Origin: a virus | Virus record (IMG/VR): IMGVR_UViG_3300005827_000109 | Span: 1 to 30,620 of that record | Direction: 5' to 3' (one strand) | Length of the DNA stretch: 30,620 nucleotides | Part shown: positions 12,020 to 23,886 of the stretch, one piece after another | How positions within the stretch are numbered: the stretch's first letter is position 1 | Layout: the number at the start of each line of letters is the position of its first letter | Translations under genes and position numbers: made by a program | Notes under the pieces: generated by a model | Told to the model about the DNA's origin: nothing | The model's database searches: none | What the model saw: the letters and a program-made list of their open reading frames with translations, nothing else

Positions 12020-12358
12020 ATGAAAATACGCATGTTGACCACAAGCTGCGGCCCTGACGCAGACGAAAACTGGACTGAAAATCAGAAAATGGATGTTAGC
12101 GTAGAACGGGCCAGGGAGCTTGTAGATGCCGGTTACGCTGTCGCTATTGATTTATTTCCTGGTGTTAAGCAGGGTACTGCTGCCGATGCTGCTCCGGTTG
12201 AATCTGATCCTGAATCTGATCCTGAATCTGATCCTGAATCTGATCCTGAATCTGATCCAGCAGAGGAAAGCGAAGCTGAAGTTGTTCCCGCTGCTCCCGC
12301 ATGGGGTGCTGCTGCCGATGCTGCTCCGGCTCCTGGTAAAAAAGGGGGTAAAAAGTGA
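12020..12358 (+). CDS. Small virion-block protein with ESDP repeats
   Basis: This 112-residue protein has a folded-looking part at residues 1-50 (KIRMLTTSCGPDADENW..., then VSVERARELVDAGYAVAID), which resembles the small proteins that sit beside capsid genes in many siphoviruses. Residues 61-79 are five copies of ESDP, followed by an Ala/Pro-rich stretch and a basic GKKGGKK end. The AADAAP motif occurs twice, on both sides of the acidic run. The acidic repeat is probably flexible and may vary between relatives. GAAAGGACG precedes the start; its stop overlaps the next GTG start. Confidence 0.75.
   Translation: MKIRMLTTSCGPDADENWTENQKMDVSVERARELVDAGYAVAIDLFPGVKQGTAADAAPVESDPESDPESDPESDPESDPAEESEAEVVPAAPAWGAAADAAPAPGKKGGKK
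12200..12259 (+). repeat. Five tandem 12-base repeats (GAATCTGATCCT)
   Basis: The unit GAATCTGATCCT occurs four times exactly from 12200 to 12247 and a fifth time with one change (GAATCTGATCCA) to 12259. It encodes ESDP repeats. The near-perfect identity at DNA level suggests recent expansion by slippage, in whole codons. Confidence 0.95.
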
Positions 12359-15710: not shown

Positions 15711-16629
15711 ATATGCGTGGAATGCAGGGGCAACAGCAGCTAATGTTCTGGCCGATATTACGGCTATTTTAACCGGCACTACAGACAAAACTGGCCTTTC
15801 TGCCTCCTGTGACCAGACAAATACAAACATTATTTCCACCATAGCGGCTGGTTGGGAACTCTATGACGATACAGCTGGCACTAATAGAAAATGTGTAAGA
15901 ACAGCAATTCATGACGATGTTACTAATTATCTATATGTCACTGTGGATACCAACACAGCAAATAAAATACTTATCGCTGCGTTTGAGTCGTGGAATGCCT
16001 CAACTAACACTGGAACAAACCAAGTAGCATCGAGCGACACAAACAACTATATAACAGTAGCTTTGGCCTCTGCTGGTTATGTTTTATTTTTTGCTACTCC
16101 GAAAGGACTTGGCTTTACAACATCAGCAGGTGGAACAGGTGTTGGTAATTGTGTATTTTTCTGTCAAAGGACAAGAAAATCCGCGTGGGATACTGTCGCG
16201 AATGGATACCCCCCGATAGCGGCTTGGTGGTCACGTGGAGCAAATCTCTATTTGATTGCCGGTATACGTGCATTGAGCAATACTGGGTCTGACTTAGTAG
16301 GTACTGGTATAGTAATGGACTTACTCTCCCCTTGTTTCCGTATGGTCTATAATGTAGCTGGACTTTCCGGTGTAACACCATCAACGGCATTTCCAGACGC
16401 TAACAAAACCAAGAAATACGGTCTGTTTGATATTAGTATTACAGGCAGCACTGGTAGTTCTGCAACCGCTACTATCGGTAATGTAGGTGGTAGTGTATCT
16501 GAGCTTAATGACATTTGGTTCCTCGGCACAATAGCAGCTACTCACGAAATATCAGAAATAATATGTAATGGTAAAACGTATGTAGTATGGGTATTGGGAA
16601 ACACTAAATACGCAATACGCAAGGGATAA
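15700..16629 (+). CDS. Virion surface protein, unknown fold
   Basis: This 309-residue protein is rich in Thr, Ala, Asn and Gly. It starts YCKYAWNAGATAANVLADIT, has GWELYDDTAGTNRKCVRTAI near residue 50 and an aromatic block (YPPIAAWWSRGANLYLIAGI) near residue 180, and ends in a WVLGNTKYAIRKG motif. ATG 15700 has GGAGG six bases upstream; an earlier in-frame ATG at 15679 lacks such a site. Composition and place among fibre-like genes suggest a particle-surface protein. I do not recognise a family. Confidence 0.7.
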   Translation: MYCKYAWNAGATAANVLADITAILTGTTDKTGLSASCDQTNTNIISTIAAGWELYDDTAGTNRKCVRTAIHDDVTNYLYVTVDTNTANKILIAAFESWNASTNTGTNQVASSDTNNYITVALASAGYVLFFATPKGLGFTTSAGGTGVGNCVFFCQRTRKSAWDTVANGYPPIAAWWSRGANLYLIAGIRALSNTGSDLVGTGIVMDLLSPCFRMVYNVAGLSGVTPSTAFPDANKTKKYGLFDISITGSTGSSATATIGNVGGSVSELNDIWFLGTIAATHEISEIICNGKTYVVWVLGNTKYAIRKG

Positions 16630-19138: not shown

Positions 19139-19777
19139 ATGGCAAGTGGAGCTATTTCGGCACAAGGTTCAAAGGTTTATATCGCTACAGGTACGGGTGG
19201 TGCTGCTACCGTTACGGGTATTAGCAAAGCGTTCAAAGCGGAAGTAACTGCATCAAATACGCTTGCAAAAGGGGATCGAGTAACATTCGGTTCTGTTGGG
19301 GGTATGACTGAGATCAATACTCTCGTCGGAACTGTTCTCGCTGCTACGGGATCGGCGTTTGTAGTTGATATTGATACCCGTGCTTTCACGAGCTACACAA
19401 GTGGGGGTACTGCAACTCCTGTAACATTTACACAGATCAAAGAAGTTAAAGACTTTAAACCTTCGGGCGCACAGGTCAGCAAGATTGACGTTACCAATCT
19501 CGACAGCGCAGCCAAAGAGTATGTTGCCGGTCTGGTTGACAACGGGGATTTCTCTATGTCTGTCAACTATGTTGCTAACGATCCTGGTCAGGCTGCTGCA
19601 AAAACTGCATTTGAATCATCTCTCACCAAAACATTCAAAATCGTCGCTCCGAACAACGATACATTCACGTTCAGCGCGTTTGTAATGAAGTTCCCCGAAG
19701 TACCTTCGGGAGCGGTTGACGGGGTTCTGATGGGAGATATGAGCGTCCAGATTACCGGCGCGGTAACATTGTCGTAA
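19139..19777 (+). CDS. Major tail protein (tail tube)
   Basis: This 212-residue protein is the likely tube subunit. The C-terminal 115 residues hold the typical core: IKEVKDFKPSGAQVSKIDV, then LDSAAKEYVAGLVDNGDFSM near residue 130, and the strand FSAFVMKFPEVPSG. The first 95 residues include an inserted small beta segment (KGDRVTFGSVGGMTEINTLV) resembling a barrel. AAAGGAGTACATC is a strong ribosome binding site, and a GNRA-capped hairpin follows the stop, as expected for a heavily made protein. Confidence 0.88.
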   Translation: MASGAISAQGSKVYIATGTGGAATVTGISKAFKAEVTASNTLAKGDRVTFGSVGGMTEINTLVGTVLAATGSAFVVDIDTRAFTSYTSGGTATPVTFTQIKEVKDFKPSGAQVSKIDVTNLDSAAKEYVAGLVDNGDFSMSVNYVANDPGQAAAKTAFESSLTKTFKIVAPNNDTFTFSAFVMKFPEVPSGAVDGVLMGDMSVQITGAVTLS

Positions 19778-19851: not shown

Positions 19852-20256
19852 ATGAGGGTGCTAAACAAAGAAGAATTTTTACAAGAGGTAAAACTGAAAA
19901 CCGAACAGGTTGAGGTTGGATCAAGCGTTGTGCTTGTTTCCGAAATGTCGGCTGCTGATCTTGTAGAGGTCAGAAAACGGGTTGAAAAAGAAGATGGTAA
20001 ACCGGATATGGATATATTCGATTTTTACATCTTGCTTTTTACAATCGTCAATCCTGATGGAACCCGTATGTTCTCCGATGATGAACTTGAAACGGTTAAG
20101 AACTTTCCACCGAAAGTAAAACGAAAACTTTGTGACGCAGCACTCCGGTTAAACGGTTTGTCAGGTGACGAGGGAAACGACTCAGGGGTAACAAGCGACG
20201 ACTCAATCTCTGGCGAATCGCAGTTGCCCTTGGATATAGACACCCCGACTTCTTAA
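19852..20256 (+). CDS. Tail assembly chaperone, short form (lambda G-like)
   Basis: This 134-residue protein corresponds to lambda gpG by position between the tube and tape measure genes. It is acidic and helical: NKEEFLQEVKLKTEQVEVG, MSAADLVEVRKRVEK, DIFDFYILLFTIVNPDGT and FPPKVKRKLCDAALRLNGLS. Its last 25 residues are a low-complexity acidic Ser/Asp stretch that overlaps the frame-shifted reading. It is the main product when ribosomes do not slip at 20172-20178. AAAGG precedes the ATG. It probably coats the tape measure protein during tail assembly. Confidence 0.85.
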   Translation: MRVLNKEEFLQEVKLKTEQVEVGSSVVLVSEMSAADLVEVRKRVEKEDGKPDMDIFDFYILLFTIVNPDGTRMFSDDELETVKNFPPKVKRKLCDAALRLNGLSGDEGNDSGVTSDDSISGESQLPLDIDTPTS

Positions 20257-20516
20257 TTGTAGGCATGACCGCAAGCCAGTTGGTTGAGCTTGAAGATTTT
20301 TACGCCATAGAGCCATTCGGAGAAATCCGGCACGAATTGCGTCACGGTCAACAAATGGCGTTAACTAAAAATCTAAATAGAGATGAAAAGAAAAGACCAA
20401 AACCATTTACTGCAATAGAGTGTATGAACTTCGTAGAGGTAGAAGAAGAACCGATTATTGAAGAAAGTCCAGAAGTTATTTCAAAACGTATCGCATCGGA
20501 GCTATTTCGACTATGA
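19852..20516 (+). CDS. Tail assembly chaperone, frameshifted long form (lambda GT-like)
   Basis: A -1 shift at 20172-20178 joins residues 1-109 of the short form to 112 residues read from 20178 to 20516, for 221 in total. The new part begins RLRGNKRRLNLWRIAVALGY, continues HPDFLIVGMTASQLVELEDF YAIEPFGE, and ends KRIASELFRL, matching the DUF4035-type T domain of other phages. The visible ATG at 20265 lies inside this domain, has no good ribosome binding site, and would cut off its conserved first helix, so independent translation is unlikely. The long form recruits tail tube protein in lambda; the same is inferred here. Confidence 0.85.
20172..20178 (+). other. -1 ribosomal frameshift slippery site GGGAAAC
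   Basis: The heptamer GGGAAAC is read G GGA AAC in the short-form frame, the X XXY YYZ form needed for a -1 slip. It differs by one base from lambda's GGGAAAG. The receiving frame has a TGA at 20166-20168 just upstream and is open to 20516, so the shift must happen after 20168, and this is a slippery heptamer of the correct phase shortly after that stop. Confidence 0.88.
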
Positions 20517-21007
20517 ATGATGTAAAAATTCTAGGTGTGATTGAAATAACAGGACTTAAAGAATTAGAGTTGCGATTAGCGCAACTTCCGCAAAAACTTG
20601 AGCGTAAAATACTCATGGATGCTGTACGAGCGGGAGCTAGGGTCATACAGAAGGAAGCGCGAGATAAAGCACCTATGAGTGTTGCGCCCCATATTCTGAG
20701 GTCTTATGCTTCCGCTTTGTTTAAGGGCTTCAAATCTGACAAAATGGGCGTATGGATTACTCCTGGTAATCTCAAGAAGATGATCCGCGTTAAGGTTGAT
20801 CGAACTAAATCTCGCGGGTATGCTGTCACCTATGAGGTTTATGTTAAGAATAAAGAAGCATGGTATTGGAAGTTTGTTGAACTCGGTACAAGCAAAATGG
20901 GGCCAAATCCTTTTATGCGTAATTCGTTTGAAACTATGAAATATCAGGCTGTAAAAAGAATCGAAGAAGAAATCCGAAATCGTCTTGAATATGGGGGGGT
21001 CGCATAA
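20513..21007 (+). CDS. HK97 gp10-like neck/tail protein
   Basis: This 164-residue protein has the typical HK97-gp10 signs: GLKELELRLAQLPQKLERKI, then ARVIQKEARDKAPM near residue 50, and FVELGTSKMGPNPFMRNSFE near residue 125, before a charged helix end. Family members belong to the neck or tail completion set and usually lie between the head-closure and tail-terminator genes. Here the gene sits after the tail chaperones and before the tape measure, coupled on both sides by ATGA and TAATG overlaps. Function by family is solid only as a virion morphogenesis protein. Confidence 0.85.
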   Translation: MNDVKILGVIEITGLKELELRLAQLPQKLERKILMDAVRAGARVIQKEARDKAPMSVAPHILRSYASALFKGFKSDKMGVWITPGNLKKMIRVKVDRTKSRGYAVTYEVYVKNKEAWYWKFVELGTSKMGPNPFMRNSFETMKYQAVKRIEEEIRNRLEYGGVA

Positions 21008-23886
21008 TGAGTCTTGGAGATTTGGTAATATCATTATCGGCTAATACCGCAACGCTGCAATCTGATATGGGTAAAGCAAACCAGATTCTTGAAAGGTTTG
21101 CCGCTCAGAGTATTAGAACAGCACAGCAAGGCGAAAGAGCAATGAAGGTTCTGGCTGCTGCCGGATTGGATTCGGTGGATCGCCTTAAAATAGCCTTTGA
21201 TAATCTCGGTATTCAGTCTGCCGCAAGTATCGAAAAATCAAAGGAACGAATAGTCGCATCTTATGAGCGTATTCGCACAAGCGGGGTCGCTACAGCCGAC
21301 GAGATCAAACGCGCTCACGAAGCTATGAACGCAAAAATCGCTCAACTTGATGGTGGGCCTGGAGTAGCTCGTCAGACCGAAGGAATGAATCTTTTTGGAT
21401 TGGCTTCTGCTGCTGCAATTCTGAAGATTCAGGTTTTGTACTCCCTTGTCAATACCGTTATGTCGCAGATCGGTCAGGCTCCTGGTGCTGCTGTAGACGC
21501 TATCGAGAATTTCAATTCGGCTGCAATATCGAGTGCCGCGTTGATAACCTCAATGCAGAAAGGTACTGAAGATATAGGGAAGCGATATAAAGAAAATAAA
21601 CAGTATGCTACCGCTGTTCAAGAAGTGCTTGTCAAAATGGATGCTGAAACCGCTGCGTCGGCTCAGAACTTGACAGACATGAACCGTAAGTTTGTCGAAC
21701 AGGGCGTATTGATCGATACCAATAATACTAAACAGATCGAAGGATTCAAGAATATTGCAAATGCTTTGGCCGCGTTGACGAGCGGTGACGCTAATAAGAA
21801 CATGCAATATACTCAGGAGATCTCGGCCCTGATGCGCGGTGAGAACCGTCCGAGTAACAAACTGTTCCAGTTGCTTAACCAAATGGATAACGGCAATCTG
21901 AAGGAACATTTGGAGCTTTGGCAAAAGACGGCCAGGGAAACCGGAAACTACGGACTGATTCTTGAAAAGATCGGCCCTATGCTATCCGGCTTTGCTGCTG
22001 CTCAAGGCGATATTAACAACTTGTGGGAAACTGTTAAATCTACAATGGGAACGATCCGCGACGAAGTATTGCGCGGGGGCTTATCTGAAGGTTTCGCTCA
22101 GATTGTTGAGTTTATGAAGGAAATCAGCCGACAAGCTAATGACAATAAAGAACGCATCCAGGCTTTTCTACGGGATTCTTTTAATACTGCGATTAAGGTT
22201 TCGGGTGCTTTCTGGAACATAGCAAAAGCAATAGGCTCGATGGGAGAGCCTTTAATGTGGGCTGCTGTAACTGCTGGTATATACTCGGCTGTAAGTGCAA
22301 TGTCGAAACTCGTTGCTGAAATGACATTGGCTACTGGTGGAATGAATTTGCTTATTGCAGGTGCTGTTGCATTGGGTATATGGGGTGGCAAGAAGATTGC
22401 TGAATATAAAAATACCTCAAACGACGCTGCTGAGATTCGCGCTAGAGTCTTGTCGGGCCATGCCTACAAGAGCGCAAAGGTAATGGGTAGTAATCAGTTT
22501 GCCAATGTAGAGGCTGAGTTTGGCCCTAGTCAATTGGAATTTATTCGCAAAGAACTTCCAATGGCTAGTAACGATCAAATTGTTAAGCTAATTGAACAGG
22601 GTGCTATTACCGTAGTTCGTAAAACGGATTCGGCATTTAATGAATGGTATAACGTAGTTCAATTAAATAAAGAACGTATAGATAAAGTATTAAAAGGTGA
22701 TGATCCTAAAGTTCCCAAAAATCTAAACGTAGGTGCATTTAAAGAAGAAAAAACTAAAACCGAAACATTTAGCGAATATAACTCGTTTGTTCAGAAGTAT
22801 CGTCAGGCTTTTAATGCCGCTGAAACCGATGAATACAAGCGTAAGTTAATGGAGATCGACGATAAGTATTCCGACCTCGAAGTAAGTTATAACCAACTTA
22901 CTAAAGCTGAAAAAGAAAGTTTGTCTGTTAAAGAAGGTATAACAGCAGAAACTTTAAAGCAAATGAAACTGAATGAAATAATGGCGTTTCAGAAACGTGA
23001 AGATGAAAAGAGAACTAAGATTGCTTTGTCTGAAGCTAATAAATTAGCTGAAGAAAAGAAACGTATGGAAAATGAGTTGATTAAAGAACAAAAGCTCATT
23101 AGTTCTGAAAAACATCGAGTTGCGAAGATCACGCAAAATCTACCTGACATGTGGGGTGGAACGGATCGTTTAGGTGCGCTCAAAAATCAGTACGACGAAG
23201 AAATCAGGTTGCTCGAAGATAAGATGCTCCGTGAGGAACAACTTCACGGTAAAAACACCGATATGTATAAAATCTATCAGGATGAACAAATTGCTCTCGG
23301 TGAAGCATACGCAGCCCGTCAGAGTGAATTGGAAACCCAAAAATGGACTTCTATCGGCGGTATAATTTCCGGTCAACTTGGACAAATGGCCGCTATGATG
23401 GATAAGGGTAATGAGGAACAATTTATAGCCTGGAAAGCCCTTGCAATCGCACAGGCTACTATTGCTACCGCTTTGGCCGTTGCTGCGATTATGGCTCAAT
23501 CTGCTTTCTTTGGCCCATTTGTAGCATTTGGGTTGGCCGCTACTGCGGGAGCCATTGGAGCCGCTCAGATCGGTATTATTGCCGGAACTAAATTTCAGAA
23601 ACGCGAAATGGGTGGGCCGGTATCTGCTGGTGAATCTTATATTGTCGGAGAGAAAAGACCAGAACTCTTTACACCAGGAGTTTCCGGTGTTATAACACCT
23701 TATGTTCCGAGCGGCAAAGGTGGGGTTACTATTAACCAATCTTTCAGTATAACCGGAGTTGCTGCTGATCTTGCTACCAATATGAAGATCATTGCAAAAC
23801 AAGCTAAAGACGAAGCTGTAAATACCGTATATCAATCCATGCAACGCGGTGGTCAATTTGCAGTTGCGTCGGGTAGGAGAATTTAA
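21007..23886 (+). CDS. Tape measure protein
   Basis: This 959-residue protein sets tail length and is ejected with DNA. It begins MSLGDLVISLSANTATLQSD, typical of tape measures, and is mostly helical. Hydrophobic stretches lie at about residues 135-160, 410-460 and 810-860 (ATIATALAVAAIMAQSAFFG, then FGLAATAGAIGAAQIGIIAG), and the charged segment of about residues 570-760 is coiled coil. The C-terminal MGGPVSAGESYIVGEKRPEL followed by FTPGVSGVI is the common end motif. At the usual 1.5 angstrom per residue it suggests a tail of roughly 140 nm. It starts in a TAATG overlap. Confidence 0.92.
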   Translation: MSLGDLVISLSANTATLQSDMGKANQILERFAAQSIRTAQQGERAMKVLAAAGLDSVDRLKIAFDNLGIQSAASIEKSKERIVASYERIRTSGVATADEIKRAHEAMNAKIAQLDGGPGVARQTEGMNLFGLASAAAILKIQVLYSLVNTVMSQIGQAPGAAVDAIENFNSAAISSAALITSMQKGTEDIGKRYKENKQYATAVQEVLVKMDAETAASAQNLTDMNRKFVEQGVLIDTNNTKQIEGFKNIANALAALTSGDANKNMQYTQEISALMRGENRPSNKLFQLLNQMDNGNLKEHLELWQKTARETGNYGLILEKIGPMLSGFAAAQGDINNLWETVKSTMGTIRDEVLRGGLSEGFAQIVEFMKEISRQANDNKERIQAFLRDSFNTAIKVSGAFWNIAKAIGSMGEPLMWAAVTAGIYSAVSAMSKLVAEMTLATGGMNLLIAGAVALGIWGGKKIAEYKNTSNDAAEIRARVLSGHAYKSAKVMGSNQFANVEAEFGPSQLEFIRKELPMASNDQIVKLIEQGAITVVRKTDSAFNEWYNVVQLNKERIDKVLKGDDPKVPKNLNVGAFKEEKTKTETFSEYNSFVQKYRQAFNAAETDEYKRKLMEIDDKYSDLEVSYNQLTKAEKESLSVKEGITAETLKQMKLNEIMAFQKREDEKRTKIALSEANKLAEEKKRMENELIKEQKLISSEKHRVAKITQNLPDMWGGTDRLGALKNQYDEEIRLLEDKMLREEQLHGKNTDMYKIYQDEQIALGEAYAARQSELETQKWTSIGGIISGQLGQMAAMMDKGNEEQFIAWKALAIAQATIATALAVAAIMAQSAFFGPFVAFGLAATAGAIGAAQIGIIAGTKFQKREMGGPVSAGESYIVGEKRPELFTPGVSGVITPYVPSGKGGVTINQSFSITGVAADLATNMKIIAKQAKDEAVNTVYQSMQRGGQFAVASGRRI

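Follow-up and report, generated by a model that had tools for sequence, protein, structure and literature searches.

Does the virus record analyzed here make a G/GT tail assembly chaperone pair by programmed −1 frameshifting, as an initial annotation proposed for positions 19,852 to 20,516, or do the two overlapping frames at this place have another explanation? The window is the whole 30,620-base record (IMGVR_UViG_3300005827_000109) and displays the head and tail gene order of a siphophage. Frameshifted G/GT pairs are standard in long-tailed phages; in the siphophage class, the fusion amounts to a few percent of G, and tail assembly requires it. The −1 frameshift of lambda gpG/gpGT was reportedly described by Levin in 1993 and Xu in 2004. 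On the plus strand of the window, which carries all the features described here, the gene for the major tail tube protein (19,139–19,777; Phage_TTP families, phrog_584) lies 5' of the chaperone pair. The pair is located between this gene and that of the tape measure protein (21,007–23,886; phrog_1538), and one HK97-gp10-like gene (20,513–21,007; PF04883) intervenes between T and the latter. The HK97-gp10-like gene sits after the tube gene, not among the upstream head-tail connector genes.

The short form, G, is a zero-frame ORF of 134 residues (19,852–20,256), and its protein matched the tail assembly chaperone family phrog_344 (E = 1.8e-15). The T frame is −1 relative to G, is open from 20,169 to 20,516, and overlaps the 3' end of G; its left bound is a TGA at 20,166–20,168. 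The sole in-phase XXXYYYZ motif within the overlap is GGGAAAC at 20,172–20,178, where the zero-frame codons are GAG GGA AAC, and the exact X XXY YYZ phase noted earlier was thus confirmed. The distance from the TGA to the heptamer, previously given as six bases, is really 3 nt. Read from 20,178, the −1 frame provides 112 residues and a TGA stop (20,514–20,516), and it matched PF06223 (Phage_tail_T, minor tail protein T; E = 3.7e-9). The earlier assignment of this frame to a T domain therefore holds, whereas the opening residues given for it do not: read from 20,178, the frame begins RLRGNKRRLNLWRIAV, and LWRIAV begins at 20,208. A −1 shift at the heptamer would join 109 residues of G to 112 residues of T, giving a fusion (GT) of 221 residues, the length originally predicted. 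A search of NCBIfam returned no family, and no solved structure matching the fusion by sequence was found. The phrog_344 and PF06223 domains, the phase, and the retention of the heptamer in relatives (described below) make it very probable that this is a siphophage G/GT pair with one start codon, in which −1 slippage at GGGAAAC yields the 221-residue GT.

The arrangement resembles that of lambda, whose frameshift has been reviewed (PMC5009743), in the location of the pair between the tube and tape measure genes, the short and extended chaperones, the −1 frame, the X_XXY_YYZ motif, and the C-terminal T domain of PF06223. It differs from lambda in the heptamer (GGGAAAG in lambda), in the HK97-gp10-like gene that separates T from the tape measure gene, and in a G part that has no Pfam model match. 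In the window's own genes, in-phase XXXYYYZ motifs occur once per about 245 codons; at the rates in these genes, the chance of any such motif in the 28-codon overlap is about 0.11, and that of an in-phase XXXAAAC/G is about 0.026. When codons were reshuffled synonymously, the −1 frame was open in 0.3% of the trials, and an open frame with a heptamer was obtained in 0.045%. The heptamer alone is mildly improbable and constitutes modest evidence; comparison with relatives lifts the case far above chance.

Searches of phages with the window's own sequences, by DNA and by protein, gave no match, as did searches of viral contigs with the T frame or the distal tail protein, and two scans of genome contigs found no relatives. 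Relatives were reached through two loci, L002 and L004, and then through phage phiSASD1; their sources were phages, plasmids, and viral contigs, and most loci came from two large scans run with peptide patterns that did not extend across the heptamer. In the closest relative, the viral contig L002, G is 37% identical to the window G and ends in GAA AAA AAC TGA, which places A_AAA_AAC directly before the stop, and T is at −1. The fused proteins of the window and L002 align across the junction, and the RR, A, LGY, and GMTA blocks are kept, partly 5' of ATG 20,265. G and T stand in the −1 relation in 111 loci, counting the window itself; in 107 of these, an in-phase heptamer occupies the same position (82 with GGGAAAC and 25 with AAAAAAC), at a nearly constant distance from both domains. 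The expectation that relatives would keep the heptamer was thereby borne out. Clustering of the 107 loci at 70% identity gave 21 clusters, 11 with AAA and 10 with GGG. The window is very divergent, with about 30% identity to all the relatives, and the phylogenetic tree places it on a very long branch as the sister of L002 (support 98/94). Because the window has GGGAAAC and its sister AAAAAAC, the first three letters have been swapped while the register was kept; on the whole tree, the GGG/AAA label changes about three times. The base following the heptamer is G in the window alone among the 107 loci and T in the others; this and the divergence of the window weigh against the frameshift reading.

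This comparison also bears on two explanations that do not involve the ribosome. At the G/T junction of three Piscirickettsia salmonis phage-like plasmids, we observed a run of A residues, namely, A6 in L019, A9 in L020, and A8 in L021; G and T are in one frame in L019 and L020, and L021 needs a frameshift. A sequencing or assembly error that split one gene might be suspected in a metagenomic contig, the more so as G and T share one frame in two of these plasmids, but 110 further loci of diverse origin show the same −1 relation, in nearly every case with the heptamer separating the domains, and we regard such an error as extremely unlikely. Slippage of RNA polymerase instead of the ribosome could likewise change the frame, since long A runs in relatives could slip in transcription and the Piscirickettsia runs differ in length. 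However, most relatives have GGGAAAC as their site, the X XXY YYZ register is retained, and polymerase would not slip efficiently on stretches as short as three G plus three A; the probability of this explanation is thus marginal, and ribosomal frameshifting is the reading followed here.

Heptamers with the XXXYYYZ pattern are missing from four of the 111 loci, all distant: Thermobifida phage P1312 and Rhodococcus phages REQ1, Shagrat, and Madraxi. The initial annotation had named the absence of the heptamer beside two intact domains as grounds against frameshifting, and these four cases do limit the rule for the family; the call for the window stands because T is still in a −1 overlap in all four. 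At about the heptamer's place, these phages (L008, L012, L013, and L023, near 1150–1170) have a zero-frame NNT TTC (U_UUC), which may be a single tRNA-Phe slip site.

The final C of the heptamer had been described as less usual. This is true against the G of lambda, but AAC ends 107 of 107 sites in this family. Moreover, GGGAAAC has already been predicted in gp18/gp19 of Burkholderia phage KL1 (PMC3483164), in the pre-tape-measure chaperones of Colossus (PMC3556154), and, as G_GGA_AAC, in the halovirus HCTV-1 (PMC5009743), so a C in the last position is nothing unusual. KL1 also resembles the window in a predicted stem-loop and in the single gene that separates the pair from the tape measure gene (PMC3483164), a likeness that does not imply homology; its site lies immediately 5' of the zero-frame stop, whereas 25 codons follow the site in the window. 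AAAAAAC, the second heptamer of the window's family, is predicted in phiCbK (PMC3556154) and, as A_AAA_AAC, used in HCTV-2 (PMC5009743); phiCbK and Colossus are large Caulobacter phages, and the likeness to the window considered here is that of the site. By contrast, the G and T proteins of Streptomyces phages phiSASD1 and Dubu are homologous to those of the window by profile, with GGGAAAC at the same place, and are annotated as joined frames, although identity is below 30% and the zero-frame stop directly follows the heptamer.

The T frame contains an ATG at 20,265–20,267, and T could in principle be a separate 83-residue protein that starts there, with a fortuitous overlap. An equivalent Met is present in L002 (in GMTA), which would agree with such a start. 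However, no Shine–Dalgarno match was found before ATG 20,265, and neither L004 nor L018 has an ATG, GTG, or TTG before +159 of T. A profile of the relatives (window left out) scored the T part at 33.0 bits from 20,178 and at 23.9 bits from ATG 20,265; the first 29 T residues thus add 9 bits, and none of 200 shuffles of these residues reached 33.0. An AlphaFold2 model of T was helical (pLDDT 81.9, pTM 0.42), with its first two predicted helices at residues 6 to 17 and 24 to 29, upstream of Met 30. The residues of the −1 frame upstream of the ATG are therefore conserved, and the earlier proposal that the T domain begins before it was upheld. Initiation at ATG 20,265 would lose the conserved first helices and leave the conserved heptamer unexplained, and we consider a separate T protein quite improbable.

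We found a predicted RNA hairpin at 20,182–20,233, a feature absent from the initial annotation, with an energy of −21.2 kcal/mol (z = −3.3; 0 of 200 shuffles as stable), which ranks it within the most stable 1% of 60-nt windows in the record. The result depends on the stretch folded, as significance was lost when two other stretches, longer or shifted, were folded (z = 0.01 and −0.45). With the stem closed down to its base, only 3 nt would separate it from the heptamer, less than the usual spacing. Downstream stimulatory RNA structures are common, not universal, at G/GT sites; among the relatives, L002 and L017 have a strong fold behind the heptamer and others have none, and such a fold is thus not fixed in the family. 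The hairpin is a candidate stimulator of the frameshift, and a likely one, as judged from the predicted fold. Upstream of the heptamer, an anti-Shine–Dalgarno-like hexamer (AGGTGA, 20,163–20,168) was considered as a further stimulator. Shine–Dalgarno-like matches of at least 5 nt occur there in 9 of 21 clusters, against a background of 16%, but conserved Glu codons could account for these nine, and the candidate was set aside as weak. A second in-phase GGGAAAC is present at 16,596–16,602, inside a 316-residue ORF, where no hairpin follows and the fold behind it reaches only −4.7.

By analogy with characterized pairs, we infer slippage, its efficiency, and the roles of the chaperones as follows. 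Most ribosomes would read G through to 20,256, and a minority, with GGA in the P site and AAC in the A site, would slip one base back on G_GGA_AAC, possibly helped by the hairpin a few bases downstream. Both tRNAs would re-pair with GGG and AAA, and translation would continue from 20,178 in the T frame to 20,513, producing the 221-residue GT. As in lambda, G would coat the tape measure protein, the T part of GT would recruit the tail tube protein, and both G and GT would leave the finished tail. A_AAA_AAC slips far less readily than A_AAA_AAG in E. coli (PMC5009743), which weighs against the frameshift reading. The A-site codon AAC is kept in all 107 loci, with hosts from Streptomyces to Moraxella; we tentatively suggest, as a possibility short of an even chance, that low slipperiness of A_AAC in bacteria is selected to hold the G:GT ratio high, a balance that the Asn tRNA would tune. 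For this highly divergent phage, the analysis provides the correct gene model, comprising the short form and a 221-residue GT, and it confirms for the field a known rule without changing it. It also yields data across the family that show a retained slip site beside variation in its first three letters, in the short-form tail, and in the RNA fold downstream.

Among these variable parts, the short-form tail differs in length between loci. In the window, G continues behind the heptamer for 25 Ser/Asp-rich residues and a stop (20,179–20,256), whereas no residue follows the heptamer in 82 of the 107 loci and 1 to 20 residues follow it in 24. The tail is not conserved, and its variation from 0 to 25 residues beside a retained heptamer is in line with the initial view of it as a by-product of the overlap; because it is usually absent in relatives, the window's Ser/Asp tail looks dispensable. 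Elsewhere in the window, an ORF of 112 residues (12,020–12,358) contains a run of ESDP tetrapeptide repeats.
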